This document shows, in pieces, positions 22,444 to 38,438 of a stretch of 38,639 nt of DNA (positions within the stretch are counted from its first letter, which is position 1; the number at the start of each line of letters is the position of its first letter). The stretch is from Lachnospiraceae bacterium. GTDB taxonomy: Bacteria > Bacillota > Clostridia > Lachnospirales > Lachnospiraceae. Location: assembly GCA_016286035.1 (NCBI GenBank), contig JAEERY010000068.1:1-38639 (forward strand). Reading direction: 5' to 3'. The position numbers were made by a program, and so were the translations under genes. The notes below the pieces were generated by a model, which made no database searches, was not told where the DNA came from, and saw only the letters and a list, made by a program, of their open reading frames with translations.

Positions 22444-22491
22444 AAAGAGACACCGTTGTCGCTTTAAATTATGCGACATCAATGTCTCTTT
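22444..22491 (-). terminator. Long inverted repeat: terminator and possible TetR operator
   Basis: AAAGAGACA and TGTCTCTTT form the outer arms and TGTCGC/GCGACA the inner arms, with a 4/4 internal loop and a 10-nt centre. On the minus strand TTTATTG follows, so it can terminate the symporter transcript. Its place 18 bp before the TetR start also suits an operator. The 22492-22581 stretch shows nothing further. Confidence 0.55.
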
Positions 22492-24145: not shown

Positions 24146-24194
24146 AAAGGCAAAAGCAACCATAATGGCGCCTTTGCCTTTTGTTTATATTATC
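24146..24194 (-). promoter_or_regulatory. Promoter with immediate terminator hairpin before the AGCS symporter
   Basis: Minus strand: a GATAAT -10 (24189-24194) is followed within 8 nt by a 13-bp stem (24146-24181; 5' arm AAAGGCAAAGGCG, with two wobble pairs) ending in TTTTTTATTT. The RNA would start at the foot of the hairpin. It could also end the upstream alcohol dehydrogenase transcript, whose stop is 92 bp away. No clear -35 is seen; ACTGG lies 17 bp upstream of TGATAAT, as in the copy at 38433. Confidence 0.6.
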
Positions 24195-24273
24195 ATATAT
24201 AGCCTCTGCATACCAGTGTTTTTTGAAGTTAACCTTAATCTTTGATCCAAACGGTTTTCAATCACCGGTTCTG

Positions 24274-25434
24274 TTATAGACAGTTTCTGTATATCTGTAT
24301 AACATCTTCGGTATCAAGTTTTACATATGCTCTTGTGGACAGTCCGCTTGTTCTGACCGCTTCCGATGCCATAAGTTCAAACTTCGAATCATCTATTCCG
24401 ATCTCAGAAAGTGTTCCGGGTAATCCCAGTTCAATAAAGAACTGCTCTGTAAGATTTATGCCTGCTATTGCAGCCTCATAATCATCCGATCTTTCAAGAT
24501 CCCATACATTACGTGCAAACATGGCAAATCTCTTCACAGTCTGAGAATTAAGAACATACCTCATCCATGCGGGTGTCAGGATGGCAAGTCCCACTCCGTG
24601 AGTGATATCATAAAATGCTGACAGTTCGTGTTCTATCGGATGAACAGACCATGCTCCGCCTTTACCAAATGTAAGCAAATGATTAAGTGCAATCGAACTC
24701 GTCCACATCAGGTTAGATCTTGCTTCATAGTTTTTTGGATCCTTTAAGGCGATCAGTCCGTATTTAAAACATGTTTTCAGAGCTGCCTCACTTAATCTGT
24801 CTGTGATATAAGCTCCGTCATTCGGTTGAAAATACTGTTCAAATATATGAGATATTATATCGACCGTACCTGCTGCCGTCTGTCTCTTGGGCAGTGTAAA
24901 TAAATAAGTCGGATCACATACAGATAATCTCGGATACAGCAGGGGGTGATTAATCTCCAGTTTTTCCTTTGTATCTTCGTTACTGATCACCGCACCCGGA
25001 TTCATCTCCGAACCTGTCGCACATATAGTAAGAACCGTAAATATCGGTAAAGCCTTGGTCACCTTCTTTTTATCCAGCACAAGATCCCATGGATCCTTAT
25101 CATAAAAGGCTGCACATGCGATATGTTTCGATGCATCAATACAGCTTCCTCCACCGATAGCCAATACGACATCTATACCGTACTTCTTACACATCTCTGC
25201 GCCCTTCCTTACCGAGGAAAGCTTCGGATTGGGCTCAATACCGGGAAGTTCATATATCTGAAAGCCCTTCAGTATGTCATATACCTTATCGTATAATCCG
25301 GTTCTCTTTATACTCCCGCCGCCGTATACCATCAGTATCTTCTTACCATATTTCTTTATTTCCTTACTCAGACATTCGATCTGATCCTTACCAAATCTTA
25401 TATCAGTCGGGACACAAAATTCATAATTGTTCAT
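24274..25434 (-). CDS. Iron-containing alcohol dehydrogenase (butanol dehydrogenase-like)
   Basis: This 386-residue group III alcohol dehydrogenase shows VLAIGGGSCIDASKHIACAA and FTVLTICATGSEMNPGAVI (nucleotide and metal domain). HPIEHELSAFYDITHGVGLAILTP carries the metal-binding histidines, and the C-terminal block GLPGTLSEIGID is present. The pattern is close to NAD(P)H-dependent butanol/YqhD-type enzymes that reduce aldehydes. It is the last gene of the six-gene oxidative operon, 20 bp after the flavoenzyme, so it probably reduces an aldehyde released by oxidation of the amine. The actual aldehyde is not known. Confidence 0.9.
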   Translation of the reverse strand: MNNYEFCVPTDIRFGKDQIECLSKEIKKYGKKILMVYGGGSIKRTGLYDKVYDILKGFQIYELPGIEPNPKLSSVRKGAEMCKKYGIDVVLAIGGGSCIDASKHIACAAFYDKDPWDLVLDKKKVTKALPIFTVLTICATGSEMNPGAVISNEDTKEKLEINHPLLYPRLSVCDPTYLFTLPKRQTAAGTVDIISHIFEQYFQPNDGAYITDRLSEAALKTCFKYGLIALKDPKNYEARSNLMWTSSIALNHLLTFGKGGAWSVHPIEHELSAFYDITHGVGLAILTPAWMRYVLNSQTVKRFAMFARNVWDLERSDDYEAAIAGINLTEQFFIELGLPGTLSEIGIDDSKFELMASEAVRTSGLSTRAYVKLDTEDVIQIYRNCL

Positions 25435-25454
25435 GCATACTCCTCCTGCTCAGA

Positions 25455-26585
25455 TTATATCTTTGCTTTAAATCTGTCGTATCTTAATGTGCCAAGATCC
25501 ACATCTGTTTTGCCAGTCGCAATAAGCTGAGCCAGCTGATGACCTGCTGCAGGTCCTATACCAAATCCATGTCCTGACATGGCACATGAAGTATAAAGTC
25601 CCGGCACCTCATCAACAGCACCTACTACCGCAACTCCATCTGCGCATTTATCACTCCATCCGGCCCACGTTCTTACTATCTTCGCATCAGCAAGATCAGG
25701 AAAGTATTTCATGATACCGCGACATATGCATGGCGCTGTCTTGGATGATGATATCGGTGTTCCGTTATCCTTATTGCATCCCTCAAAACCAGAAGAACCG
25801 CCAAACACAAATGAACCATGCTTTGTCTGATGGCCGTAGAAATCAGCCTCCGCTGTTCCTAACATCTGATCAAACATATGTGGTTCTGCTTCCGTTACAA
25901 GACACTCGAGCAAAGATCTGGTCATCGGGATATCAACTCCGACAGTTCCCAGGATGGCTCTGCTGTCAAAGCCTGCTGCCACCAGGATGTTCTCTCCTTC
26001 AAATATATCTCCTGATTCGCATATGACCTTTCTTACTCTTCCTTTGACCATACGCAGTTCCTTTACATGTTCGCCCGATATAAACCTTACCCCAAGCCTT
26101 CTGGCCATCTTATAATATCCAAGGGTTGTGGTCAGTGGATTAGCATGTCCGTCTGTAGGACACCAGCTTGCACATGTGACTTCATCTGAAAGATACGGAT
26201 TGATGTTCTTTACCTCTTTGGCATCGATCATTCTTACATCCAGTCCGCAGCTTTGAGCATTTGTTGCGAGTTTTGTGAGGATCTCTTTATGCTTTTCGTT
26301 TTTTCCCAGTCTTAAGTTTCCGTCCTGATGGTATTCACAGTCTGTTTCCAGTTCCTCTGAAAGCTTTGGCCAGATGTTCTTTATACCGTACATCACAAGC
26401 GGTAATTCCCTTACATCTCGTCCTGACTGTCTTACGCCACCTCCATTTCTGCTCGAACCGCCGTTTCCTATAAAATCGCTACCCTCAAGAACGATCACAC
26501 TAAGGCCTCTCTTAACAAGATAATATGCTGCGGAGTTACCTATTATTCCACCACCGATAACGATTACTTCAGCGTTACTCTTCAT
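25455..26585 (-). CDS. FAD-dependent amine/amino acid dehydrogenase, beta-subunit type (DAO family)
   Basis: The ATG at 26583-26585 is preferred because AGGAGG lies about 9 nt upstream; the frame stays open 12 codons further but without a usable site. The 376-residue protein has the FAD-binding VIVIGGGIIGNSAAYYLVKRG at the N terminus, GGSSRNGGGVRQSGRD near residue 45, and the C-terminal GLYTSCAMSGHGFGIGPAAGHQLAQLI block of the D-amino-acid-oxidase/sarcosine-oxidase-beta group (like HcnC and OoxB). It oxidises a C-N bond and passes electrons to the iron-sulfur partners encoded upstream. It overlaps the BFD gene by 11 bp. In an anaerobe it should work as a dehydrogenase rather than an oxidase. 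Confidence 0.87.
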   Translation of the reverse strand: MKSNAEVIVIGGGIIGNSAAYYLVKRGLSVIVLEGSDFIGNGGSSRNGGGVRQSGRDVRELPLVMYGIKNIWPKLSEELETDCEYHQDGNLRLGKNEKHKEILTKLATNAQSCGLDVRMIDAKEVKNINPYLSDEVTCASWCPTDGHANPLTTTLGYYKMARRLGVRFISGEHVKELRMVKGRVRKVICESGDIFEGENILVAAGFDSRAILGTVGVDIPMTRSLLECLVTEAEPHMFDQMLGTAEADFYGHQTKHGSFVFGGSSGFEGCNKDNGTPISSSKTAPCICRGIMKYFPDLADAKIVRTWAGWSDKCADGVAVVGAVDEVPGLYTSCAMSGHGFGIGPAAGHQLAQLIATGKTDVDLGTLRYDRFKAKI

Positions 26586-26916
26586 AATGTCCATCCTCCT
26601 TTGCTTCATTTGCAAAGACACGCATCTCTATGGGACGCATGGGAACTCTGCTTGTTGCCGGTTCTATCTCAGCCGGAGAAACCCCAAGCTCCCTTGCAAC
26701 TATCCCCTTTACCAGTCTTGAACAGGTTTGTCCCTGACATAATCCCATTCCTGCCCTTAAGTATCTTCTTATCTCTGTGATAGTCCACATACCGTCGTGA
26801 ACTGCCTGTCTTATTTCACCTTTTGTTATCTCTTCGCAACGGCATATCAGCATGTCATCGTCAGGAGCCGGTACAAAAGGACCTATATCTCTCGATCTGT
26901 CATTAACACTGTTCAT
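26575..26916 (-). CDS. BFD-like [2Fe-2S]-binding protein
   Basis: This 113-residue protein has the motif MLICRCEEITKGEIRQAV followed after about 33 residues by GMGLCQGQTCSRLV. This gives the CxC...CxxxxC arrangement of the bacterioferritin-associated-ferredoxin-type cluster domain found at the C terminus of HcnB, OoxA and sarcosine-oxidase alpha. Here it is a separate polypeptide between the two flavoproteins, 11 bp after the first and overlapping the second. It most likely carries electrons between the flavins in the complex. The tail after residue 80 (PATSRVPMRPIEMRVF) resembles the segment that follows this domain in the fused homologues. Confidence 0.85.
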   Translation of the reverse strand: MNSVNDRSRDIGPFVPAPDDDMLICRCEEITKGEIRQAVHDGMWTITEIRRYLRAGMGLCQGQTCSRLVKGIVARELGVSPAEIEPATSRVPMRPIEMRVFANEAKEDGHYEE

Positions 26917-26927
26917 AACCTCTCCTC

Positions 26928-28508
26928 CTATTTCAAAACCTTAAAGAACCTTGCTTTCATCGCATATTCCTTGGGTACTCTCATAGTTAACAGATTCGTC
27001 TTGTCAAAAGCCTTTGCACTCTTAACTGATACCACTTCTGCCTTGCAAACTTCGCTACCGTCTCTTCCTAGCGCTATACCCTTTTCTCCTTCTCCGGGAA
27101 GTGGTAAGAATTCATACGGAAGGGTTACTGTAGCCGTCCCGTCTCCGCAGTCCTCATCCACTAAAAATATGGCCTGACCCGAACAGCTGGCAACACACAT
27201 GCCGCAATTGATGCATTCACTATCTTTTACAACTATCGGTAACGATGTGATATTGTTTCCGATAGAAATACATTTCTTGGGACAGGCATCCTGACACGGG
27301 TTGCAAGGAATGTTCTGAGTGCACTCGATAACGGGATGAACTCCCTTCTTGTGAGTCACACCAGGATATCTTTCGATCTCGTCATCTGAAACGTATCCTT
27401 TTTTTAGAAGATTCATGGAAATATCTATTCCCTCGTCTGTCTTCTCTATTGCTTTACCACGGTTCTTTGGAGCAAACATACCCTGGCGGAGGCCGTCAAG
27501 TGCCTTTTCCATTACCTCAAGTTCAGTTTCCATAGATTCCATATCGATATATCCGAGATACTCAGCAGCCACAACTCCGGCCATACGTCCTTCTATCATC
27601 GCTGAAGATGCTTCTTCTATACCTGATACATCTCCGGCCACAAATACACCTGGAATGGATGTCCTTCCATATTCATCACATATGGGAACCTGACCTCCTC
27701 TTTTGGGATTATCCTCCATCTTGGCTCCGGCCATCTTAAGAAGCTGTGACATCGGCGACAGACCGACTGCCAGGCAGATTGTATCAACATCAAAATGCTT
27801 TTCGGTACCGGGTATAAAATTGAATTTGTCATCAATCTGAGCGATGGTAACTCCTGTAACCCACTCATCACCCTCAGCTTCAACTATCGTATGCGACAGG
27901 TAAAACGGAACACCTGTCCTGGCCACCTTTGCTGCATGTACTCCGTATCCACCGACTCTGGGTGCCGCATCAACCAAAGCTACCACTTCACATCCACACT
28001 GCAGAAGCTGGAATGAAACAACAAGACCAACATTGCCCGAACCAAGCATCAAGACCTTTTTTCCAGGTAATACACCATGCAGATTCATAAGTGTCTGAGC
28101 TGCTCCTGCTCCAATAACACCCGGAAGAGTCCAACCCTTAAATGTGACCATGTTCTCGGCTGCACCTGTAGCGATAACAACAGCATCTGCTTTGTAATGT
28201 CTTATATTATCTTTAATCTTTACTACAACTTCTTTATCCTGATAAAGGCCGATCACGGTTGCATTCAGTACAACGAGCACACCTGCCGCCGCGGCTTCAT
28301 CCAAAAGCTGTTTTCCTATCACGAATCCTCGTGTCTTTGCCCTGTGTTCTTTAGAGCCGAAGAACTTATGAATCTGTTTGAATAACTGTCCGCCGGGTTT
28401 CTCATTTTCATCAAATACGATAACATCCAGTCCTCTTTTAGCTGCTTCTATGGCTGCTGACAATCCGGAGGGACCCGCACCAACAATGATTAGATCATAT
28501 CTTTTCAT
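26928..28508 (-). CDS. FAD/NAD(P)-binding oxidoreductase with ferredoxin-type clusters (HcnB/OoxA-like)
   Basis: This 526-residue protein has two Rossmann motifs, LIIVGAGPSGLSAAIEAAKRG (FAD, residue 4 on) and VLMLGSGNVGLVVSFQLLQCG (NAD or second flavin site, about 150). The STIPGVFVAGDVSGIEEASSAMIEGR block is typical of the family. After about residue 375 comes an added iron-sulfur part: CTQNIPCNPCQDACPKKC and CINCGMCVASCSGQA, enough cysteines for two [4Fe-4S] clusters. The fused BFD domain seen in HcnB-like proteins is absent and encoded by the next gene. It is the probable alpha subunit of an amine/opine dehydrogenase complex. Confidence 0.88.
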   Translation of the reverse strand: MKRYDLIIVGAGPSGLSAAIEAAKRGLDVIVFDENEKPGGQLFKQIHKFFGSKEHRAKTRGFVIGKQLLDEAAAAGVLVVLNATVIGLYQDKEVVVKIKDNIRHYKADAVVIATGAAENMVTFKGWTLPGVIGAGAAQTLMNLHGVLPGKKVLMLGSGNVGLVVSFQLLQCGCEVVALVDAAPRVGGYGVHAAKVARTGVPFYLSHTIVEAEGDEWVTGVTIAQIDDKFNFIPGTEKHFDVDTICLAVGLSPMSQLLKMAGAKMEDNPKRGGQVPICDEYGRTSIPGVFVAGDVSGIEEASSAMIEGRMAGVVAAEYLGYIDMESMETELEVMEKALDGLRQGMFAPKNRGKAIEKTDEGIDISMNLLKKGYVSDDEIERYPGVTHKKGVHPVIECTQNIPCNPCQDACPKKCISIGNNITSLPIVVKDSECINCGMCVASCSGQAIFLVDEDCGDGTATVTLPYEFLPLPGEGEKGIALGRDGSEVCKAEVVSVKSAKAFDKTNLLTMRVPKEYAMKARFFKVLK

Positions 28509-28520
28509 ATCTTAATCCTC

Positions 28521-28847
28521 CTACTGCTCATCAAATGGCTTTTCAGATACACCAAACTGAGTCTTAACGACCATTCCTTCCTTTAAAGGCGTAATGCAGG
28601 TTCGTACATTCGGGACTCCGTCAACTATCATCACACAATCTGTGCATCGCCCTATCGCACAGAAGATACCTCTCGGCTTGTGCTCCTTTTGCGTATATCT
28701 GTGAACCATCACATCCGCCGCCTTAAGTGCTGCAGCAATAGGTTCTCCTTCATATCCTTCTATCTCCATACCATCAAAAACGAATTTTACGATCTTTCCC
28801 TTTTCCTGTACTCCAAGTATCGGATGCTCTGCTATTCTGTCTGCCAT
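28521..28847 (-). CDS. [2Fe-2S] ferredoxin-like subunit (HcnA/Fer2_4)
   Basis: In this 108-residue protein the motif FCAIGRCTDCVMIVDGVPNVRTC gives the CxxxxCxxC...C set of the Fer2_4 domain found at the N terminus of sarcosine-oxidase alpha and as the separate HcnA protein. It begins with an extended region (MADRIAEHPILGVQEKGK). It lies 12 bp before the FAD-alpha gene and 38 bp after the ornithine-cyclodeaminase-like gene, so it belongs to the same complex. Electron transfer is the likely role. Confidence 0.87.
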   Translation of the reverse strand: MADRIAEHPILGVQEKGKIVKFVFDGMEIEGYEGEPIAAALKAADVMVHRYTQKEHKPRGIFCAIGRCTDCVMIVDGVPNVRTCITPLKEGMVVKTQFGVSEKPFDEQ

Positions 28848-28885
28848 AACCGCTTACTCCTCTCATATATATTTTGATGACTCTG

Positions 28886-30019
28886 CTAATGCATGTCAGG
28901 TTCATTCCACAGTCGGAGTGATGTCCCAAGTCCCAGTTTCTTTGCATTCTCGTAACAAACCTTGCCCCATGCCACATCTTCCACCGGCATGCCGCCTACC
29001 GAATATACAAATATCTGATCATCACTTACCCTTCCGGGTTTCTTTCCAAAAATGATATCTCCCAGATCTGTGATATCCTCCATATCGATAAGTCCTTCAT
29101 AAGCCATATCTGTAAACTTTGATCCTATAATGTTATTTGCTCCAAACGAAGGATATGTAAATTCCTCAGCCCATGCCTCATAGAGCTTTATGTTATCAAC
29201 CACCAGTGAACATGTCTTAAGCTCGTTCGAGTCCATATCAAATGCGCTCACACCTATCAGGACCGCTCCGGGTTTTATCCATTCTTTCTTAACAAAAGGA
29301 TAAGTCGAAGGATCGGTTGAACCTGAGTTTGCAAATGATATCACATCTGTATCTCTTATAAGTTCTTCCACTGAATCCACCGCCTTGACTTCCTTAAGCT
29401 GCGAATACTCTTTACTTACATACTCGATAAAACTCATGAGTGAAGCTTTTCCTCTTCCCTTGACCTTCACGGTATTAATGTTTGGACACGCTGCCATGAT
29501 AGCCGCAAGTGAGGTCTTGCCCATTACACCCGGTCCGCATATACCGCAGACCGTTGCATCTTTTCTTACCAGATATTTAGCTCCGACCCCGGGTATTGCA
29601 CCGGTTCTGTACGCACTTAACAGATTTGCACTCATAAGTGCTAGCGGTGCTCCGGTATTCTTATCGTTTAGCATCACGGTTAATATGGATCTGGGTAATC
29701 CTTTTTCCTTATTTGCCATGTTTGATCCGTACCATTTCATTCCCATAAGATCAAACGGTCCTCCGATATAAGCCGGCATAGCCATGAATCTTCTGTCATC
29801 GCCTTCATCAAGTGGCATGTTGGAAAACGGCGATGTTTTGGGAAATGATACCTGACTGCCGTGCGAGTTATGATTCTCACCACCCATAACATAATCTCCG
29901 GTGTTCAAACATTTGACCACTTCTTCCATAGCCTCTATACAAGCCGCCATATCCTTAACACCTGCTTTTATCATGTCTTCTTCACTTAAAAATAAAAAAT
30001 CGATTGCCGGATAACTCAT
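28886..30019 (-). CDS. Ornithine cyclodeaminase/mu-crystallin family protein (tyramine oxidase subunit B-like), copy 1
   Basis: The ATG at 30017-30019 has AGGAAGG upstream and aligns with the start of the second copy (AIDFLFLSE); this gives 377 residues. Family features are RRFMAMPAYIGG, KWYGSNMANKEKGLPRSIL (conserved Lys), SANLLSAYRTGAIPG and the Rossmann CGICGPGVMGKTSLAAIM. Members include ornithine cyclodeaminase, ketimine reductase and a group that databases call tyramine oxidase subunit B. Being the first gene of the flavoenzyme operon it probably acts on the imine, amino acid or amine made or used there. The second copy (30216-31364) is similar throughout. Confidence 0.85.
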   Translation of the reverse strand: MSYPAIDFLFLSEEDMIKAGVKDMAACIEAMEEVVKCLNTGDYVMGGENHNSHGSQVSFPKTSPFSNMPLDEGDDRRFMAMPAYIGGPFDLMGMKWYGSNMANKEKGLPRSILTVMLNDKNTGAPLALMSANLLSAYRTGAIPGVGAKYLVRKDATVCGICGPGVMGKTSLAAIMAACPNINTVKVKGRGKASLMSFIEYVSKEYSQLKEVKAVDSVEELIRDTDVISFANSGSTDPSTYPFVKKEWIKPGAVLIGVSAFDMDSNELKTCSLVVDNIKLYEAWAEEFTYPSFGANNIIGSKFTDMAYEGLIDMEDITDLGDIIFGKKPGRVSDDQIFVYSVGGMPVEDVAWGKVCYENAKKLGLGTSLRLWNEPDMH

Positions 30020-30082
30020 ATGCTTCCTTCCTGACAAACTTAGGATCAAAAATGTCTGTCTTTTATTTTTCTAAAAGTAAAA

Positions 30083-30114
30083 GGCAAAAGGACTTTATAT
30101 GTGGCCCTTTTGCC
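30083..30114 (-). terminator. Promoter-proximal terminator hairpin before the oxidative operon
   Basis: On the minus strand GGCAAAAGG pairs perfectly with CCTTTTGCC (14-nt loop), followed by TTTTACTTTT. It lies about 7 nt past the predicted transcription start and about 65 nt before the first gene, so full-length transcripts must read through it. It is 102 bp past the preceding gene and might also end that gene's transcript. Confidence 0.7.
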
Positions 30115-30127
30115 TCTTCTTGTAAAC

Positions 30128-30156
30128 AATCTACACCCGTTTAAGTACTTCATCAA
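30128..30156 (-). promoter_or_regulatory. Candidate promoter of the six-gene oxidative operon
   Basis: TTGATG (30151-30156) and TAGATT (30128-30133) are separated by 17 bp on the minus strand. The -35 lies inside an inverted repeat, TTAAGTA (30141-30147) and TACTTAA (30158-30164). Confidence 0.5.
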
Positions 30157-30199
30157 TTACTTAATATCACCTTTTTTTTACTCATTTCGTGGTTGATAT

Positions 30200-30216
30200 A
30201 CCACTTATTAAGTAGT
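30200..30216. promoter_or_regulatory. 17-bp palindrome, candidate regulator site (copy 2)
   Basis: The minus strand reads ACTACTTAATAAGTGGT: arms of 7 bp with one mismatch around a 3-bp centre. It overlaps the last base of the second ornithine-cyclodeaminase gene and lies about 45 bp upstream of the -35 of the oxidative operon. It matches the palindrome at 35912-35928 at 15 of 17 positions. Confidence 0.55.
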
Positions 30217-31364: not shown

Positions 31365-31387
31365 AGCCTAACCTCCTAAAAAGAAAA

Positions 31388-31414
31388 CCCAGGGCGGAGA
31401 ATATCCACCCCGGG
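31388..31414 (-). terminator. Terminator-like hairpin between potD and the OCD-family gene
   Basis: On the minus strand CCCGGGGTGGA pairs with TCCGCCCTGGG (11 bp, two wobbles, 5-nt loop), followed by TTTTCTTTTT and then at once by the AGGAGG site of the downstream gene. That gene can only be expressed by read-through, or from a promoter inside the hairpin region. Confidence 0.8.
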
Positions 31415-31457
31415 CCTCATTGCCTTTAATCCTATACTGCATGATCAATCATATTTA

Positions 31458-32522
31458 CTATTCCTTCAGTTTTGTCCACATCTCATTATAGATATCAAGC
31501 GTTGCACTATCCAGATTTTCCACATAACTACCCTTTGAGATGGCATCAGCCGGCGGATTCTTTGCAGGATTGCCGCTGTATTCTTCTCCCATAAGCGCAA
31601 TGGCATCTGTATTTGCACAAAGGTACGGGAATTCCTTTAAAACAATCTCCATGTTTTCCGGTTCCATTATGAAATTGATCCACTTCATCGCATTGTCATA
31701 GTTGGGAGATTCTTTTGTTACTACCCAGTTATCAAAGAACAGATATGCACCTTCTTCAGGATATATCACTTCGATAGAAGGAACCTCTTCCATAGCCATT
31801 GCCACCTCGGCACTCCAGATCATTCCAGCTGAGCAGTCACCTGATATAAGTGCGCTCTTTGGAGAATCCGAATCATAGAGAACTACATTCTTCTTAAGTT
31901 CCATTAGCTTGTCTGATACTTCTGAAAGCTTTGCAGGATCAGTCTCATTAAGATCATAACCTATAGCCTTTGATGTCATGCCTATAACCGCACGGAAGTC
32001 ATCAAGGATAACTAACTGTCCTTCAAGGGACGGATCAAAAAGGTCTGCATAACTGGTTATCTTGGCATCTATCTTTTCCGTGTTGACAGCTATAGCACCG
32101 GCTCCGCCCATGTAAGGCACGGAATATACATTTCCGGGATCATATGTGGGATTCTTATAACTGTCTCCTATATGAGAGAAGTTAGGAAGCTTCTCAAAAT
32201 CCAGTTCCTTTAACATATCCTGTGCAATAAGCTGAGCTACCATGTAATCACTCGGATTTAATACATCATAAGCGCCTGCAGTTTCTGACTTAACTTTTGC
32301 TAACATATCCTCATTTGAAGAATATGTTGAAACGTTTACCTTTATACCTGTCTCCTTTTCAAACTTCTCAACTACAGAATCAGGCAGATACTCTGTCCAT
32401 ACAAACAGATTTAATTCACCCTGATCTCTTGAGGCACTCTCCGACGTTGATGAGCCGCATCCTGTCAGACTCACAACTGTTAAAGATAACGAAATCAATA
32501 CTGCTAAAATCTTTTTCTTCAT
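31458..32522 (-). CDS. potD: Polyamine ABC transporter substrate-binding lipoprotein (PotD-like)
   Basis: This 354-residue protein carries a signal peptide ending in the lipobox LTGC (residues 18-21), then a Ser-rich linker. ELNLFVWTEYLPDSVVEKFEKETGIKV is the typical start of spermidine/putrescine-binding proteins, followed by YDVLNPSDYMVAQLI, SVPYMGGAGAIAVN and FFDNWVVTKESPN. It is anchored outside the membrane and delivers the ligand to PotBC. Putrescine or spermidine is the family default, but related binding proteins take other amines or opines. It is cotranscribed 27 bp after potC. Confidence 0.92.
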   Translation of the reverse strand: MKKKILAVLISLSLTVVSLTGCGSSTSESASRDQGELNLFVWTEYLPDSVVEKFEKETGIKVNVSTYSSNEDMLAKVKSETAGAYDVLNPSDYMVAQLIAQDMLKELDFEKLPNFSHIGDSYKNPTYDPGNVYSVPYMGGAGAIAVNTEKIDAKITSYADLFDPSLEGQLVILDDFRAVIGMTSKAIGYDLNETDPAKLSEVSDKLMELKKNVVLYDSDSPKSALISGDCSAGMIWSAEVAMAMEEVPSIEVIYPEEGAYLFFDNWVVTKESPNYDNAMKWINFIMEPENMEIVLKEFPYLCANTDAIALMGEEYSGNPAKNPPADAISKGSYVENLDSATLDIYNEMWTKLKE

Positions 32523-32549
32523 AATATTGTCCTCCTTAAAAATCTGATG

Positions 32550-33356
32550 TCAGATTTCTTTATGCTTACCGGATAAGATACCGCTCTGTGTCAGATACAC
32601 CAACCCTATAGTACCTATTAGTACTAAAGTTGATAGAGCGTTAACATCCGGAGAAACACCGCTTTTAATGCTTTCCATAACCTTTAAGGGATATGTCTTT
32701 GTCTGTCCGTTTACAAAGTAGCTGATGATCACATCATCTATCGAAAGAGTAAATGCCAGCAATGCACCACCGGCTATTCCGGGAGCCAGAACCGGCAGAG
32801 TTATCTCAAAGAAAGTAACTACCCTGTTGGCTCCCAAGTCCATGCTTGCTTCCTCTATCGACTTGTCATATCCCGAAAGCCGGGCTCTCACATTGAATAT
32901 CACATACGGAACACTGAAACTCACATGTGATAATATAAGTGTCACCATTCCTCTTGGGATGTTCACGTTGGTAAAGATCGTAAGCAATGCTATGCCTATA
33001 ACAATCTCAGGGATCACTACGGGAATATATAAAAAAGCATTTATCATCCCTTTACCCTTAAACTTATATCTGTATATACCTACTGCACCGAGTGTTCCTA
33101 TGACCGTCGAAAGGATAGTGCTTAATACTGCGATAATCATGGTATTTCCAAACGATTCCAGTAATGATGAGTTACTCCATAGCTTTATATACCAGTCAAA
33201 CGAAAATCCCTTCCAGCTTAAATATGGTTTGGTTGTCGTTGCATTAAACGAATTGGCGACAACAACGAAGATAGGAAGAAATAAGAACAGATATACCATT
33301 GAGCAAAAGGCTACACTTAATCTTTTTATTCTTTTTTCTTTTCTTGCTTTTCTCAT
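32550..33356 (-). CDS. potC: Polyamine ABC transporter permease (PotC-like)
   Basis: This 268-residue membrane protein has six helices. The coupling loop EASMDLGANRVVTFFEITLPVLAPGIAGGALLAFTLSIDDVIISYF is the EAA motif of binding-protein-dependent permeases and is of the PotC type. The ATG has GGAGG upstream. It lies 9 bp after the other permease gene, and the two form the channel. Confidence 0.93.
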   Translation of the reverse strand: MRKARKEKRIKRLSVAFCSMVYLFLFLPIFVVVANSFNATTTKPYLSWKGFSFDWYIKLWSNSSLLESFGNTMIIAVLSTILSTVIGTLGAVGIYRYKFKGKGMINAFLYIPVVIPEIVIGIALLTIFTNVNIPRGMVTLILSHVSFSVPYVIFNVRARLSGYDKSIEEASMDLGANRVVTFFEITLPVLAPGIAGGALLAFTLSIDDVIISYFVNGQTKTYPLKVMESIKSGVSPDVNALSTLVLIGTIGLVYLTQSGILSGKHKEI

Positions 33357-33365
33357 ACGCGCCTC

Positions 33366-34244
33366 CTATACTCCCAGGCTATCCATATCTCCGCCAAGCT
33401 TCTGATATATCTTTACAAGTAATAAAGTCACCAGAATGAGTATTATTGAAAGTGCTGCACCCAGCGGCCAGTTGTTTGCACTCTTGAACTGTCTTTCAAT
33501 AAGGTTACCTATCATATCCGTATTTCCGCCGCCCAGGATATTTGATACAAAGAAATAGCCAAGACACGGTATGAAAACCATTATGCATCCTGAAAATATC
33601 CCGCTGGCCGTTAACGGAAGGATCACTTCAAATAATGTCTTTAGAGGCTTTGCTCCAAGATCACTTGATGCTTCAAGCAGGCTATCATCCAATTTCTCTA
33701 TTGCTGTATAAAGAGGAAGAACCATAAAAGGTATAAAGCAATAAACCATACCAAGTACAGTGGTACCTGTCTTATAGAGAAATTCAACCGGTTCGCTTAC
33801 CAATCCGATCGTCATTAACAGTTTGTTTAACCATCCGCTGTTTCCCAGGAATGTTCGCCATCCGTATATTCTGATAAGCGAGTTTGTCCAAAACGGTATG
33901 ATAACGAGCATATAGAATAACTGTTTTTTTCTGCTCTTTGTCCTTGCTATCACATATGCGAACGGATATCCCACCAGAACACAGATCACTGTAGTAACAA
34001 ATGCTATGAGCAACGACTGTGCATATATCTTTAAATAGTCTGTTGAAACAAGTTTGCCATAGTTTGCAGCCGTAAATCTGTATACCACGTTGTAAAACTC
34101 GTCGGTCTGACAAAAGCTCATGACCGCAACAAATATTAGGGGTGCTACTACCAAAAACAAAAGAAGTATTGCCACCGGTCCTACCGTTACCATAGCCGGC
34201 ATCGTATTCGATTTGAATTCATGCTTTGATCTCTTCTTCATCAT
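33366..34244 (-). CDS. potB: Polyamine ABC transporter permease (PotB-like)
   Basis: This roughly 292-residue membrane protein has six helices. The coupling loop EASSDLGAKPLKTLFEVILPLTASGIFSGCIMVFIPCLGYFFV is the EAA motif, and AYVIARTKSRKK and PFWTNSLIRIYGWRTFLG are PotB/PotH blocks. The start is taken at the ATG 34242-34244; a GTG two codons earlier overlaps the AGGAG site itself, and a second ATG directly after is also possible. It pairs with PotC in the importer. Confidence 0.93.
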   Translation of the reverse strand: MMKKRSKHEFKSNTMPAMVTVGPVAILLLFLVVAPLIFVAVMSFCQTDEFYNVVYRFTAANYGKLVSTDYLKIYAQSLLIAFVTTVICVLVGYPFAYVIARTKSRKKQLFYMLVIIPFWTNSLIRIYGWRTFLGNSGWLNKLLMTIGLVSEPVEFLYKTGTTVLGMVYCFIPFMVLPLYTAIEKLDDSLLEASSDLGAKPLKTLFEVILPLTASGIFSGCIMVFIPCLGYFFVSNILGGGNTDMIGNLIERQFKSANNWPLGAALSIILILVTLLLVKIYQKLGGDMDSLGV

Positions 34245-34276
34245 CGACACTCCTTTCGTATTAATCGCTGCCTTTA

Positions 34277-35386
34277 CTAAGCAAGCTTGATCTCATCCAA
34301 AGCCTTGAATATCTTATAACTGTCATTATGAATAAGTACTCCGTCTTCAGGCTCCCAGTACGGATATATCCTGCTTCCTATAGTCGGCAGTTCCTGGCCG
34401 GATAGTCTTTCAATCTTAAGTTCGTTTCCGTTTGGAAGGGAAACAATACATTTAAGCACTGAACCGACATATATAAAATCCTTGACCACCGCAACAAGTT
34501 CAAATCCGTCATGTGGTTTCGTGTCAAATCTCATATTTTCCGGTCTTACCGATACTGTTGCGTATTCCAGTATTGAAAAACTGTCATCACATTTTACTTT
34601 TACCGCACCGTTCTCAAGTGTTACAGTGGCGATGCCCTCTGTTATACTGGTAACACAACCATCATAGATATTTGTCTCTCCTATAAAGGTTGCAACAAAT
34701 CTCGTTGCGGGATGCTCATATATGTCTTTGGGACAGGCCAGCTGATCAACAACACCGTCATGCATTATCGCTATCCTGTCACTCATTGTAAGTGCCTCTT
34801 CCTGATCATGCGTTACATATATAAATGTGATGTTTAACTTTTTTTGCAATCTCTTAAGCTCAAGCTGCATCTGCTTTCTGAGTTTCAGATCAAGTGCTCC
34901 GAGGGGTTCATCAAGTAAAAGAACTCTCGGTCTGTTTATAAGAGCTCTCGCTATCGCCACTCTCTGCTTTTGTCCTCCGGACAACTGACTCGGATATCTG
35001 TTCTCAAAGCCTGTAAGCTGAACCATGTCCATCATCTCAAAGACACGCTGTCTTATCTCATCCTTTGGCACTTTTTTCATCTTTAGGCCATATGCTATGT
35101 TGTCGAAAATGGTTTTATGCGGGAACAGTGCATATGTCTGAAATACTGTATTAACATTTCTTTCAAATGGTTCCTTTTCCTCGATTGACTCCCCTTCAAC
35201 CTTTATGGATCCCGTTGTCGGCTCCTCAAAACCTGCTATCATTCTCAATGTTGTAGTCTTGCCGCATCCGGATGAACCAAGAAGTGTAAGGAATTCACCT
35301 TCGTCAACAGATATGTTTAAGTCCTTTACCACATGGTTAGAACCATATAATTTATTTACACCTGATAATTCAACTATTGTTCCCAT
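34277..35386 (-). CDS. potA: Polyamine ABC transporter ATP-binding protein (PotA)
   Basis: In this 369-residue ATPase, Walker A is GSSGCGKTT, the signature is LSGGQKQRVAIARAL, Walker B is RVLLLDEPLGALD, and the H-loop is YVTHDQEEAL. A C-terminal TOBE-type domain (about 240-369, with SVRPENMRFD) is the usual regulatory part of PotA/MalK-type ATPases. It energises PotBC. It starts 14 bp after the PII gene and is cotranscribed with it, so PII could act on this protein; that is inference from position. Confidence 0.95.
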   Translation of the reverse strand: MGTIVELSGVNKLYGSNHVVKDLNISVDEGEFLTLLGSSGCGKTTTLRMIAGFEEPTTGSIKVEGESIEEKEPFERNVNTVFQTYALFPHKTIFDNIAYGLKMKKVPKDEIRQRVFEMMDMVQLTGFENRYPSQLSGGQKQRVAIARALINRPRVLLLDEPLGALDLKLRKQMQLELKRLQKKLNITFIYVTHDQEEALTMSDRIAIMHDGVVDQLACPKDIYEHPATRFVATFIGETNIYDGCVTSITEGIATVTLENGAVKVKCDDSFSILEYATVSVRPENMRFDTKPHDGFELVAVVKDFIYVGSVLKCIVSLPNGNELKIERLSGQELPTIGSRIYPYWEPEDGVLIHNDSYKIFKALDEIKLA

Positions 35387-35400
35387 GTGAACACCTCCGC

Positions 35401-35751
35401 TTACAGTGCCTTGACACCTCTCTCGCCTGTACGAATCCTTATGGCGTCTTCTATGTTTCTAATGAATATCTTTCCGTCTCCTACATGATCTGTCGCACAT
35501 ACCTCTCTGATATTCATGATCACCTTTTCAACATCCTTATCAGCTACTACTACCTCAACTTTTATCTTCGGGAGTAAATTGATCGTGGTCTTAAGACCTT
35601 TGATCTCATTCACAGTCCCCTCGGAAGATCCTTTCTGGGTACCACATCCCATCGCCGTTGAGAGTGTCATACCACCGCAGTGAACTTTATCAAGAACATC
35701 CTTAACATCTTCTAACTTTTCCGGTCTGATAATGATAATTAACTCTTTCAT
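35401..35751 (-). CDS. PII-family nitrogen regulatory protein
   Basis: This 116-residue trimeric signal protein senses 2-oxoglutarate and ATP/ADP. KELIIIIRPEKLEDVKDVLDK opens the PII fold; KIKVEVVVADKDVEKVIMNI, VGDGKIFIRNIEDAIRIRTGERG is the B- and C-loop block, complete with TGERG. The T-loop reads GCGTQKGSSEGTVNEIKGLKTTINLLPK: it is slightly longer than in GlnB/GlnK, and the tyrosine that is uridylylated in enteric GlnB is missing. It is the first gene of the polyamine-importer operon rather than next to amtB or glnA. It could gate the transporter, act as a nitrogen sensor for the cluster, or belong to a NifI- or PotN-like subgroup. Confidence 0.9.
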   Translation of the reverse strand: MKELIIIIRPEKLEDVKDVLDKVHCGGMTLSTAMGCGTQKGSSEGTVNEIKGLKTTINLLPKIKVEVVVADKDVEKVIMNIREVCATDHVGDGKIFIRNIEDAIRIRTGERGVKAL

Positions 35752-35794
35752 GTCTGTATCCTCCTATAAAGGTTTATACCTGCTTGAAATGAAA

Positions 35795-35824
35795 CAAGGG
35801 AACTGTGCTAAGCCAGCTCCCTTG
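35795..35824 (-). terminator. Leader hairpin before the PII-pot operon
   Basis: On the minus strand CAAGGGAGCTG pairs with CAGTTCCCTTG (11 bp, one wobble), followed by TTTCATTT. It is about 29 nt after the predicted start and 43 nt before the PII gene. The T tail is weaker than in the sister hairpins. It is 105 bp past the LuxR stop. Confidence 0.6.
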
Positions 35825-35859
35825 CCAAATACTCTTCGCAATATGTTTTTGATATGAGT

Positions 35860-35888
35860 ACTATAAATCATTGTCTATGCCATTTCAA
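35860..35888 (-). promoter_or_regulatory. Promoter of the PII-pot operon
   Basis: TTGAAA (35883-35888) and TATAGT (35860-35865) are separated by 17 bp on the minus strand, a good vegetative promoter about 100 nt before the PII start codon. Confidence 0.65.
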
Positions 35889-35911
35889 CTAATCAAAATA
35901 GCCATTTTCAT

Positions 35912-35928
35912 ACTACTTTTTAAGTAGT
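35912..35928. promoter_or_regulatory. 17-bp perfect palindrome, candidate regulator site (copy 1)
   Basis: The minus strand reads ACTACTTAAAAAGTAGT: two 7-bp arms around a 3-bp centre. It begins one base after the stop of the LuxR-type gene and is centred about 67 bp before the predicted start of the PII-pot transcript, the classic place for a LuxR/NarL-type activator site. Confidence 0.6.
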
Positions 35929-35929
35929 T

Positions 35930-36679
35930 TTAATCCTTTTCCCTAATCATTTTGAAAAGTCCGACTCTATTGTTTATACCTAATTTTCGGTACAGGTTCA
36001 AAATATGCTTCTTAAGAGTATTCTCCGATATTACCAACGAGTCGCATATAGTAGTGTTGTCTCTTCCTTCCATCAGCAGCCTCAAAATGGTCTCTTCTCT
36101 GCGGGTGAGTCCGTATTTTTCTGTTGCTCCGGCTACCGAAAGCTTCTCACTTATCAGATTTCCGCTCTTCTTCTGCTGATATAACCTGAATGCCAGATGA
36201 TCTTTCAAAAGGTCCAGGATAAAAATATCATCATAAATAAAATCATCCTTACCTATAGTTCTGTAGAAAGTTATGACTCCGACAAACTCCTTTTTTCTAG
36301 CAAGCACCATTTGCAAAGAATAATGCCATTTGTTTGTCTTGTACACTTTCTTATAATAATCTGTCTCTACTCTCTTGGAATCATCGATAATGTCCGTTTC
36401 TCTGTATATGAGAGTTTTTCCGCTGTAAAGGATACCTCGACTGTAATCTATCTCATCATATGCGATCGACATATCCTCTTCACAGTTAAACAGAACCGGC
36501 GAAACAAGTTTATTCTCACCATCGGGAGAAGCTAAAAGAAAATCAGCGCTGTCATAATCTATAAGCATTTTCATCTGCTCAAGAAACTGTTCACGCATCT
36601 CATTGATATTACTCATTGTATAGATTTTGTAGATGATACTGTTTAGGAGTATCCAGTCATTGGTATCTAATGTTCTCAT
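35930..36679 (-). CDS. LuxR-family transcriptional regulator
   Basis: The ATG at 36677-36679 is chosen because AGGAGG lies 8 nt upstream; an ATG two codons earlier is only 2 nt from the site. The 249-residue protein has an N-terminal GAF-like or unassigned sensory part (about 1-165, with DYDSADFLLASPDGE and MVLARKKEFVGVITFYR). A C-terminal LuxR helix-turn-helix follows (YGLTRREETILRLLMEGRDNTTICDSLVISENTLKKHILNLYRKLGI). No receiver or ANTAR domain is seen. It lies directly upstream of the PII-pot operon on the same strand and is the obvious candidate for binding the palindromes at 35912 and 30200. Its own leader carries two terminator hairpins. Confidence 0.88.
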   Translation of the reverse strand: MRTLDTNDWILLNSIIYKIYTMSNINEMREQFLEQMKMLIDYDSADFLLASPDGENKLVSPVLFNCEEDMSIAYDEIDYSRGILYSGKTLIYRETDIIDDSKRVETDYYKKVYKTNKWHYSLQMVLARKKEFVGVITFYRTIGKDDFIYDDIFILDLLKDHLAFRLYQQKKSGNLISEKLSVAGATEKYGLTRREETILRLLMEGRDNTTICDSLVISENTLKKHILNLYRKLGINNRVGLFKMIREKD

Positions 36680-36695
36680 AAGCATATCCTCCTAA

Positions 36696-36726
36696 AAAGG
36701 CATTCTGCTATACGCAAAACGCCTTT
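36696..36726 (-). terminator. Second leader terminator of the LuxR-type gene
   Basis: On the minus strand AAAGGCGTTTTGC pairs along all 13 positions (two wobbles) with GCAGAATGCCTTT around GTATA, followed by TT and then the AGGAGG site. The hairpin ends 2 nt before the ribosome site, so it could affect both elongation and translation. Confidence 0.75.
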
Positions 36727-36742
36727 GTCTGCAAATAAAAAC

Positions 36743-36767
36743 GGGAGCTCACATATTGTGAACTCCC
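36743..36767 (-). terminator. First leader terminator of the LuxR-type gene
   Basis: On the minus strand GGGAGTTCACA pairs with TGTGAGCTCCC (11 bp, one wobble, 3-nt loop), followed by GTTTTTATTT: a canonical intrinsic terminator. The upstream neighbour is on the other strand, so it must lie in this gene's own leader, about 8 nt after the predicted start. Confidence 0.85.
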
Positions 36768-36781
36768 TTGTTCATATTAAT

Positions 36782-36810
36782 GATTTATCATAATGATTTT
36801 GTTTTGTCAA
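36782..36810 (-). promoter_or_regulatory. Promoter of the LuxR-type gene
   Basis: A perfect TTGACA (36805-36810) with TAAATC (36782-36787, 17 bp) or ATAAAT (16 bp) as -10 on the minus strand. The rest of the gap to 36948 has an imperfect palindrome GTAATG-ATATTAC-CATTAC (36829-36847) and must hold the divergent promoter of the SemiSWEET gene. Confidence 0.65.
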
Positions 36811-36948
36811 CAAGAATCCCCTCTGTGAAGTAATGATATTACCATTACCTCTTCCAAATAAGTATAAATATAATCAGATGGTGTAATTGTTTTATACTGC
36901 ATGTAAATCTAAAATCTAACCATATATCAAATGTACGGGTGATTATAT

Positions 36949-37245
36949 ATGAAGAGTCTGATCGCTACTGTTTTTGTTACAGTATATTACATTTTGAATT
37001 ATACAAAATCCATTCCCATCATATATAAGGCTATAACGACCAAAGAGACAGATGACTATTCTCTTACATCAATAGCCATCGCTTATGTAGCCAATGTATC
37101 ATGGGTAATATACATTGCTCTTACACTCCAGTCTGTTGTTGTCTATATAGGTACATTTGTCGACTGGTTACTATTGACCACGGTTGATTTTTTCATTCTG
37201 TATTACAGGTTCAAACGTAAACATCACTCCGCTACTTGTAATTGA
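36949..37245 (+). CDS. SemiSWEET/PQ-loop small membrane transporter
   Basis: This 98-residue protein has three membrane helices, the size of bacterial SemiSWEETs, which dimerise to form a sugar uniporter. The PQ-loop-like block SIPIIYKAITTKETDDYSLTSIAI fits the family pattern (Pro in helix 1, then K.T......S). It ends with a basic tail. It is divergent from the LuxR-type gene, and its last 14 bp overlap the 3' end of the opposite EamA gene. SemiSWEETs usually carry sugars; next to amine genes the substrate is open. No strong ribosome site is visible (GGGTGAT about 11 nt upstream is weak). Confidence 0.7.
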   Translation: MKSLIATVFVTVYYILNYTKSIPIIYKAITTKETDDYSLTSIAIAYVANVSWVIYIALTLQSVVVYIGTFVDWLLLTTVDFFILYYRFKRKHHSATCN

Positions 37246-37660
37246 TCAGTCCCAATCCCACAAGACATACCATTATTCCGATCACTTTATTCCATGTTAT
37301 GGATTCATGATATATCGCAAAGCCGACAAAGATCAGTACAACAGCAACTATTGCTGCCTGTACGATCTGAGCTGTACTTACCGTCCATCCTGCCTTAAAC
37401 GCATAAATGAATCCAACCTCTAAACCTACAACAGATAACCCCAATACAAACGGGGCCCAGTTTGCTTTATGATATTCCTGAATTAAATTTACATCTTTGT
37501 TTATCACAACGTAGAAAACAAATGCCACAACAGCACCTATCAGATAGGTGATCGTCAGTGAAGCAAACGGATTCATACCGTCAGGCACAGACTTAGCACT
37601 TACCTGATAAAACACATTGGATAATACTATTAGAATAAGCGGCCATACATAATTTATCAT
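37232..37660 (-). CDS. EamA/DMT-superfamily half-size transporter
   Basis: This 142-residue protein has five likely membrane helices, the single-repeat form of the drug/metabolite transporter superfamily. MNPFASLTITYLIGAVVAFVFYVV and TAQIVQAAIVAVVLIFVGFAIYHESITWNKVIGIMVCLVGLGLI are typical EamA blocks (E before the last helix included). It probably works as a dimer, exporting or importing a small metabolite. It starts 4 bp after the stop of the C26 amidotransferase gene, so it is cotranscribed with it. Confidence 0.85.
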   Translation of the reverse strand: MINYVWPLILIVLSNVFYQVSAKSVPDGMNPFASLTITYLIGAVVAFVFYVVINKDVNLIQEYHKANWAPFVLGLSVVGLEVGFIYAFKAGWTVSTAQIVQAAIVAVVLIFVGFAIYHESITWNKVIGIMVCLVGLGLINYK

Positions 37661-37664
37661 AGAT

Positions 37665-38372
37665 TCACCTTTCGTTACACTGACTTACAAACTCTCTAAA
37701 TATCTTCTTACTGTTTTCATCCCTTCTGAATGAAAACTCAGGATGCCATTGAAACGCCCATACAAATTTCTTCCCCGGTATCTCAATCGCCTCTGTTATT
37801 CCATCTTCAGATACAGCCATGCTTTTTACACTTTCAGCTTTTTGTTTTATAGCCTGATGGTGATAGCTGTTGACCCAGATCGACCTCATATTTAACAGTC
37901 TATACAGCCCGCTGTCTTCATTTATACTCACTCTGTGAACAGGGATATCATATGGCGGAGACTGATGATGTTCGATATATGAAAGGCGCTGCGTTTTAAG
38001 GTCCTGATAAAGTGTACCTCCCAGATAGACATTTAAAAACTGTATTCCTCTGCATATCCCGAGGATTGGAATGTCTATTTCCAAAGCCTGTATTAGCAGT
38101 TCCTTTTCCATCTTATCCCGTTCACTACATATATCTCCACACTCAGCAATCTGTGTATCTCCATAAAGCTTTGGATCAACATCATGACCGCCTGTTAAGA
38201 GTATCCCCTGAACAGTATTAAGCAACTGCCTTATCATTTCCTTATCATCCGTTAAAGGAAGCATTACAGGAATACCGCCTGCTTCTTCTACCCCGTCCAT
38301 ATAGCCTGGCAGCATCCATAAGCTGTCTTTCTTTTCATCTACCAATGGTACTATTCCAATGATCGGCTTCAT
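37665..38372 (-). CDS. Gamma-glutamyl-gamma-aminobutyrate hydrolase-like class I amidotransferase (peptidase C26)
   Basis: The ATG at 38370-38372 has GGAGGG 6 nt upstream, giving 235 residues that start MKPIIGIVPLVDEK, the usual start of the family. The catalytic Cys lies in ILGICRGIQFLNVYLGG, the His and Glu in WAFQWHPEFSF, and LTGGHDVDPKLYG is the conserved loop. Relatives (PuuD) hydrolyse gamma-glutamyl-GABA in the putrescine-degradation pathway of enteric bacteria; other members cleave gamma-glutamyl amides of amines or amino acids. Its position next to polyamine uptake genes supports a gamma-glutamyl-amine substrate. No gamma-glutamyl-amine synthetase (PuuA) is visible in the window. Confidence 0.88.
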   Translation of the reverse strand: MKPIIGIVPLVDEKKDSLWMLPGYMDGVEEAGGIPVMLPLTDDKEMIRQLLNTVQGILLTGGHDVDPKLYGDTQIAECGDICSERDKMEKELLIQALEIDIPILGICRGIQFLNVYLGGTLYQDLKTQRLSYIEHHQSPPYDIPVHRVSINEDSGLYRLLNMRSIWVNSYHHQAIKQKAESVKSMAVSEDGITEAIEIPGKKFVWAFQWHPEFSFRRDENSKKIFREFVSQCNER

Positions 38373-38390
38373 ATATTTCCCTCCAAAACA

Positions 38391-38438
38391 AAAAGACAAA
38401 AGCACCTTTAGGCGCCTTTGCCTTTTGATAATATTATC
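38391..38438 (-). promoter_or_regulatory. Promoter with immediate terminator hairpin before the C26 amidotransferase gene
   Basis: On the minus strand a TGTGATAAT extended -10 (GATAAT at 38433-38438) is followed by a 16-bp stem (38391-38426; 5' arm AAAAGGCAAAGGCGCC, TAAA loop, four wobbles) and TTTTTGTTTT. The RNA would begin at the foot of the hairpin. The gene starts 19 nt after the hairpin. From TGATAATAT to GCGCC this element differs from the one at 24146-24194 at only about three positions. Confidence 0.65.

Follow-up and report, generated by a model that had tools for sequence, protein, structure and literature searches.

What reads the six terminator-like hairpins that stand in gene leaders of one contig from a Lachnospiraceae bacterium, and which genes do they control? 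The contig (JAEERY010000068.1 of assembly GCA_016286035.1; C87 in our numbering) is 38,639 nt long, was analyzed over its whole length, here called the window, and belongs to a source assembly of 3.02 Mb over 95 contigs. The hairpins precede five transcription units: an AGCS symporter gene, an oxidative operon, a PII-pot operon, a LuxR-type gene with two hairpins, and a C26 amidotransferase gene. Our findings suggest that ANTAR control acts on these sites to attenuate transcription across a nitrogen regulon, in a form with a single hexaloop at the 5' end of the transcript, with a pseudo-receiver ANTAR protein encoded beside a glutamine synthetase gene (glnA) as the regulator; we assign this reading a probability of roughly 0.83. 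The support is found at the sequence level and comprises the covariation of a mini-hairpin, its overlap with terminators, the absence of the upstream hairpin (P1) of published ANTAR targets, the placement of promoters at roughly half the sites, the identity of the genes, and the joint occurrence of element and ANTAR gene, while the binding, direction, and signal of the ANTAR control are what we infer.

All six hairpins of the original prediction were recovered on the minus strand where it had placed them, with fold energies of -18 to -22 kcal/mol, and the gene products were confirmed as a sodium/alanine symporter, two OCD-family proteins, an FAD protein, an Fe-ADH protein, PII, a LuxR/GerE protein, and a C26 peptidase. 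The shared 5' arm that had been proposed holds for five of the six, which fit RRCAARGGMGYY; the arm of the oxidative operon, GGCAAAAGGGCC, does not, its A run being longer by one. Terminators elsewhere had been said to lack the arm, and a CAAnGG 5' arm indeed occurs in 5 of the 22 intergenic terminator-like hairpins in the whole window on both strands, all of them minus-strand leader hairpins. Over the same extent, 4227 Rfam families gave no match at gathering scores, in agreement with the earlier view that no known riboswitch fits, and we rejected a riboswitch reading on this ground. Taken alone, the arm is non-specific: it matches the genome 44 times against 32 for a reversed control, and the 32 loci inspected lie mostly within open reading frames without such a hairpin, which led us to drop it as a motif. 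Specificity resides only in the arm and the terminator combined.

A closer examination of the arm reveals a mini-hairpin, RRC-AARGGM-GYY, in which a 3-bp stem (RRC/GYY) closes a hexaloop A-x-x-G-x-x and which overlaps the 5' arm of the intrinsic terminator at the window sites. Published ANTAR targets carry a hexaloop whose first base is A and whose fourth is G (A1/G4), and eut leaders share a 13-mer, AGCAANGRRGCUY, that overlaps the 5' part of terminators (PMC3369931). Five of the six window sites have an A1/G4 hexaloop closed by a stem of 3 bp or more. We surveyed every intergenic terminator in 786 kb, covering the window, five further stretches of the same genome, and 64 loci from relatives, the last enriched for nitrogen genes because they were fetched through their ANTAR gene. 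Among the 335 terminators, 5'-arm hexaloops of the A1/G4 class number 51, against 17 for the next best of 16 classes, and among the 151 placed in leaders they number 38, against 11 for the next class.

The pairing of the arm with itself provides a second line of evidence. Among 46 CAAnGGnG arms at terminators, chosen without reference to pairing, both outer positions are paired in 42, where base composition predicts 24.5, and the variants AAC-GTT, GAC-GTC, AGC-GCT, GGC-GCC, and CGC-GCG were all present. In 45 distinct rows, none removed on account of pairing, 91.1% of cells are paired against 73.8% in shuffles, two-sided changes occupy 51 cells against 11.1, and stem covariation is 0.664 against 0.294, a value reached by 0 of 500 shuffles; sliding the partner lowers it to 0.07-0.26. 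This pattern indicates that the arm pairs with itself as a mini-hairpin, which a terminator alone does not need. The predicted energies are +0.9 to -2.8 kcal/mol for the mini-hairpin against -18.4 to -21.6 kcal/mol for the terminator.

The same element stands ahead of further nitrogen genes in the source genome. On contig C38 it precedes the gene of a 699-amino-acid glutamine synthetase (which we take to be GSIII), an amt-PII fusion, dapL, the NADP-glutamate dehydrogenase gene gdhA, purF, and a kinase/phosphatase gene; on contig C11 it precedes an operon with phosphoenolpyruvate-synthase-like and NadE genes. This gives 12 leader sites including five in the window, or 13 with a second glnA, adjoining the ANTAR gene, whose leader carries CTGC-AAAGGG-GCAG. 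The list may be incomplete, since a looser pattern returned 98 rows, overlapping rows being counted apart, against 31 control rows; among the nine unexplained rows inspected, no clear new leader was seen. An unexpected member is the kinase/phosphatase gene (L034:13490-15055, minus strand), in which a PP2C-type phosphatase domain is fused to a serine/threonine kinase. The leader of the 699-amino-acid enzyme (L033:15426-15620, minus strand) also showed, on reading of the sequence, a further GC-rich hairpin 3' of the attenuator and a reading frame that stays open through the attenuator.

Among 150 genomes of the family, the strict pattern GCAAAGGYGC...GYGCCTTT gave 49 matches against 4 for the control. 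The next gene is a homologue of a member of the source regulon or a nitrogen gene in 22 of the 30 loci listed, namely glnA of the 699-amino-acid type (5), amt (8, one from the source genome), asnB (3), purF (2), pyrG (1), phosphoenolpyruvate-synthase-like genes (2), and an AGCS gene (1). Other next genes encode a GlnQ-like ABC ATPase, an argD-like product (by eye), and an oligopeptide permease, two have no assignment, and the label acetylornithine aminotransferase for locus L051 is our assumption. Three of the 30 loci (L042, L049, and L061) look like chance matches.

For the position of transcript starts, 100 sites were collected and 11 with unpaired stems were removed, leaving 89 (44 drawn from pattern loci, 32 contributed by the terminator survey, and 13 of the source genome), with the oxidative-operon site retained; single-base shuffles served as the reference for the promoter, P1, downstream-hexaloop, and glnA-leader tests. 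Within 70 nt, 53 of the 89 sites have a sigma-A promoter that scores 10/12 or better (2.6% in shuffles). At 46 of them the distance from the end of the -10 of this strong promoter to the hairpin is 6-15 nt (shuffles, 1.0%), and there the predicted start, 7 nt after the -10, precedes the hairpin by 0-9 nt, with a median of 5. In the window, starts had been proposed 0 to 8 nt before the hairpin in four units, a proposal that is partly confirmed. A -10-like box does lie 10-13 nt ahead of the arm for the C26 gene (9/12), the oxidative operon (8/12), and, by eye and without a scored promoter, the AGCS gene, whereas the PII promoter (10/12) ends 33 nt before its arm and the LuxR gene has no scored promoter.

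These positions bear on the possibility that each hairpin is simply the 3'-end terminator of the gene before it, and that the arm is a sequence common to terminators of this group. Three of the six window hairpins lie 92-105 nt past a preceding stop codon, which by position alone is compatible with such a role for these three; two bare-arm matches in the source genome resemble 3' terminators (L029, and C24:116107 with an unpaired stem); and a paired GGC-AAAGGC-GTC terminator hairpin on contig C37 (L036:3583-3594, plus strand), 43 nt after one open reading frame and 144 nt before the next, could be a leader or a 3' end. The LuxR pair, by contrast, is 464 and 505 nt from the nearest upstream same-strand stop, and for the C26 hairpin the window holds no such stop. 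Covariation that a terminator has no need of, strong promoters just ahead of the hairpin, next genes that are mostly nitrogen genes, and an element that tracks the ANTAR gene likewise stand against ordinary 3' ends, to which we leave a very small probability.

The genome holds a single ANTAR gene (61.8 bits in the genome search), directly 3' of the second glnA; its ANTAR domain (PF03861) scores 59.7 bits against a cut-off of 27.3. The best match of the adjoining glnA is to type I, at 393.9 bits and thus under its cut-off of 429.15. The closest named homologue of the ANTAR protein, 98% identical, comes from a rumen Lachnospiraceae metagenome-assembled genome. Of 64 named ANTAR loci, two without a readable start were left out of the neighbor count; 61 of the remaining 62 close homologues follow a homologue of the same glnA, and one is at a contig edge. 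In the leader of this ANTAR-linked glnA, 26 of 60 loci have an A1/G4 hairpin whose stem is 4 bp long, where 3.4 are expected, and CAARGG is present in 17 of these against an expectation of 0.08, a pattern suggestive of autoregulation of the ANTAR-glnA operon.

A broader pattern was found in 104 of the 150 family genomes, that is, in 102 of the 131 that have an ANTAR gene and in 2 of the 19 that lack one (Fisher p 1.7e-8, relatedness ignored), and the strict pattern in 37 of 131 against 0 of 19. That the hexaloop is read by another RNA-binding factor, or acts through the stability of the RNA 5' end rather than through the glnA-linked ANTAR protein, would accord with the neglect of phylogeny in this statistic and with the pattern matches that two ANTAR-less genomes, G072 and G137, retain. 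G137 is 81% complete, though, and the 19 ANTAR-less genomes yield 3 matches against 2 in the control; moreover, A1 and G4 in a six-base loop are the published ANTAR rule (PMC3369931), and the ANTAR gene itself belongs to a glnA operon that has the element in its leader. We regard this alternative as improbable, to the same degree as ordinary 3' ends.

The predicted structure of the ANTAR protein (mean predicted local distance difference test score, pLDDT, 88.6; predicted template modeling score, pTM, 0.63) places Rv1626 and EutV, with and without RNA, as the nearest solved structures, with AmiR at rank 6. For comparison with the RNA-contact residues of EutV, we shifted the PDB chain numbering by two residues, an assumption that brings all six published residues into agreement. 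The equivalents of E160 and M172 are invariant in 63 of 63 proteins and the place of Y164 is His, Phe, or Tyr in all 63, while the basic places R142, K143, and K147 are not conserved. The receiver-like domain has no phospho-acceptor Asp at columns 52-56 in any of the 63 proteins, which implies that ANTAR activity is probably set by a partner protein, as that of AmiR is by AmiC. Since AmiR is a partner-run pseudo-receiver ANTAR protein, partner control is the natural guess here too, and we would guess at the neighboring glutamine synthetase as the first candidate.

Published ANTAR targets combine two hexaloops, P1 and P2, and the upstream one is at chance level in the nitrogen sites. An A1/G4 hairpin in the P1 position was found at 2 of the 89 sites against 2.4 expected; allowing any first loop base on a 4-bp stem gave 4 of 89 against 2.7, and a purine first loop base with G4 gave 3 of 89 against 1.5. 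As a positive control, three eutP-eutV loci from other families were put through the scanner and each of them scored, two clearly and L261 with a weak strict match. This control is small, and its automatic scan found no A1/G4 P2, so that P2 was anchored by eye, its loop beginning with G in two of the loci. Since P1 is at chance level in the nitrogen sites while the scanner scores the eut loci, the sequences indicate that these sites are not of the dual-hexaloop type. Two other positive controls for P1 were negative: none was found in genomes with two ANTAR genes, and 26 EutP loci held no dual motif. The eut P2 loops of L259 and L260, from other families of the class, read GATGAA, with G at loop position 1, and depart from the published rule, while their P1 is A1/G4.

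A second A1/G4 hexaloop 0-25 nt downstream is present at 13 of the 89 sites (3.5 expected), several of them formed by the 3' arm (L116, L119, and L124), as expected if the sites were dual targets with the second hexaloop in the terminator loop or 3' arm, but the class C1/T4 is equally frequent there (13) and T1/T4 nearly so (11), 76 of the 89 sites have no such hexaloop, and a 3'-arm hexaloop is a consequence of pairing with the 5' arm. We draw no conclusion from the downstream hexaloops and hold the dual reading to be the least probable of the alternatives, by a small margin. In L116, L119, L121, and L124, the terminator 3' arm can form an A1/G4 hexaloop (for instance, AAG-AATGCC-CTT) 12-13 nt after the first.

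Under the ANTAR-dependent single-hexaloop reading, RNA polymerase would start a few nucleotides upstream of the hairpin and RRC-AxxGxx-GYY would be made first. With nothing bound, as fold and U-tract suggest, the 3' arm would capture this nascent 12-mer as the 5' arm of the terminator, and transcription would stop within about 50 nt. When nitrogen is scarce, the glnA-linked ANTAR protein would bind the hexaloop, hold the 12-mer as a mini-hairpin, and block the terminator, allowing transcription of glnA, amt, gdhA, purF, the PII-pot operon, and other members; the direction of induction is borrowed from NitR of Clostridium saccharobutylicum. At a guess, the role of P1 could be taken over by slow elongation early in the transcript or by a partner that delivers the protein. 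We lean, with less confidence than for the attenuators themselves, towards P1-independent antitermination, in which a single 5'-end hexaloop serves for two, perhaps through a slow polymerase just after promoter escape or through delivery by a partner such as glutamine synthetase, and which would provide family-wide nitrogen control overlooked by two-hairpin searches.

Several observations weigh against this reading, besides the three hairpins that follow stop codons. EutV antitermination is abolished by deletion of P1 or by a longer linker (PMC3369931, PMC8934654), and the absence of P1 here implies that the mechanism differs or that binding does something else. A strong nearby promoter is lacking at 43 of the 89 sites and is present at 4 of the 13 leaders of the source genome. 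The loop of the oxidative-operon site has no G4, breaking the rule, and this site may stand outside ANTAR control. The position of EutV K147 is acidic in 23 of 63 homologues, the source protein among them. Co-occurrence in the family was computed without regard to relatedness, and in the rest of the class, with relatedness again ignored, it is weaker (28 of 59 genomes with an ANTAR gene against 11 of 55 without, p 0.003), with 44 matches against 17 in the control where the gene is present and 12 against 6 where it is absent.

Both central proposals of the original prediction gain support: a single attenuation/antitermination regulon acting on nitrogen genes, from the gene set, the hexaloop arm, and ANTAR co-occurrence; and an ANTAR protein as the candidate switch, from the ANTAR-type hexaloop, the single ANTAR gene beside glnA, and the tracking of that gene by the element across relatives. 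It had overlooked the self-folding of the arm, the location of most of the regulon elsewhere in the genome, the one site that breaks the loop rule, and the missing second hairpin.

The window features are collected in Table 1. In the C26 gene, the open reading frame taken from its first start opens at GTG 38405, inside the terminator; translation more likely begins at ATG 38370, 3' of GGAGG. The minus strand carries a 16-bp near-palindrome, CTACTTAAWAAGTRGT, at 30200-30215 and 35912-35927, exactly 101 nt ahead of the hairpin arm in both the oxidative-operon and PII-pot leaders. With at most one mismatch it has two copies in the genome, both in the window, and a reversed control pattern also has two matches. 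Because both copies stand ahead of these two leaders, a DNA-binding regulator may act on both, and the repeat is perhaps an operator for the LuxR-type regulator encoded at 35930-36685. Separately, a terminator-like palindrome at 22448-22487 spans the promoter (TTGACA...CATAAT) of a TetR-family gene (21866-22426) and is probably the operator of that gene, not a terminator; the A1/G4 match at 22450-22485 was set aside on this ground.

Table 1. Attenuator elements and candidate promoters of the window (positions in nt).
Transcription unit	Feature	Start	End	Strand
AGCS symporter (gene 22582-24069)	ANTAR-type mini-hairpin GGC-AAAGGC-GCC in leader	24167	24178	-
AGCS symporter	Terminator overlapping the mini-hairpin	24146	24181	-
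OCD/oxidative operon	Arm GGC-AAAAGG-GCC; stem pairs, loop position 4 is A, outside the loop rule	30103	30114	-
OCD/oxidative operon	Leader terminator	30080	30117	-
PII-pot operon	Mini-hairpin GGC-AAGGGA-GCT in leader	35815	35826	-
PII-pot operon	Leader terminator	35795	35824	-
PII-pot operon	Candidate promoter TTGAAA-17-TATAGT, 10/12	35860	35888	-
LuxR gene	Distal mini-hairpin AAC-AAGGGA-GTT in leader	36761	36772	-
LuxR gene	Distal leader terminator	36743	36767	-
LuxR gene	Proximal mini-hairpin GAC-AAAGGC-GTT in leader	36718	36729	-
LuxR gene	Proximal leader terminator; U-tract enters ribosome-binding site	36696	36726	-
C26 amidotransferase	Mini-hairpin GGC-AAAGGC-GCC in leader	38411	38422	-
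C26 amidotransferase	Leader terminator	38391	38426	-
C26 amidotransferase	Candidate promoter CTGGCA-17-GATAAT, 9/12, extended -10	38433	38461	-

In Clostridium saccharobutylicum, nitR presumably adjoins glnA. A single-hexaloop terminator regulon in Lachnospiraceae was not found described in our literature search, which was mostly at title level and confined to literature open without subscription. That ANTAR proteins act by antitermination, and that this is tied to nitrogen and glutamine synthetase, is already known; as far as that search shows, the P1-less form at transcript starts, its use across a family, and the membership of the window genes are new. Two earlier target searches required two stem-loops and would miss a single-hexaloop form.

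Among known systems, the EutV-regulated eut leaders of Enterococcus faecalis are alike in that an A1/G4 hexaloop overlaps the 5' part of a terminator (PMC3369931, PMC8934654), and their consensus AGCAANGRRGCUY is close to the arm of the present sites (PMC3369931). Both regulators also combine an ANTAR domain with a receiver-like N-terminal domain. EutV targets, however, have P1 and P2 separated by a short linker and need both, whereas the present sites have no P1 and place the hairpin where the transcript begins; Asp54 of EutV is a phosphorylation target of EutW, whereas the present protein has no Asp at the receiver site and its gene lies beside glnA. AmiR-AmiC of Pseudomonas aeruginosa offers the parallel of a pseudo-receiver ANTAR protein controlled by a partner (PMC8934654, PMC3369936), although it serves one amidase operon whose leader has P1 and P2. 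NitR, an ANTAR protein reported to induce glutamine synthetase/glutamate synthase genes by antitermination under nitrogen limitation (PMC6316151), resembles, as described in a review, the inducer of nitrogen genes proposed here.

Earlier ANTAR targets near ammonium, glutamine synthetase, and associated regulator genes share the nitrogen theme, some in multi-operon regulons, but were found with a model requiring two hairpins, unlike the present sites (PMC3369931, PMC3369936). Actinobacterial and mycobacterial ANTAR RNAs are comparable in the many targets per genome, but that search retained dual stem-loops, few of which overlap terminators (PMC8164766); some mycobacterial stem-loops over ribosome-binding sites fall outside the dual rule (PMC8934654). 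Set beside these systems, the many single-hexaloop sites that occur naturally at transcript starts, joined to terminators, allow the two-hairpin model to be tested directly. They also suggest, in concrete terms, how a common gut and rumen family may control nitrogen assimilation: a glnA-linked ANTAR protein reading short leaders, with glnA, amt, gdhA, and purF as proposed targets and, in the window, the oxidative amine-type operon (a weak site), the PII-pot operon, the symporter, and the amidotransferase.

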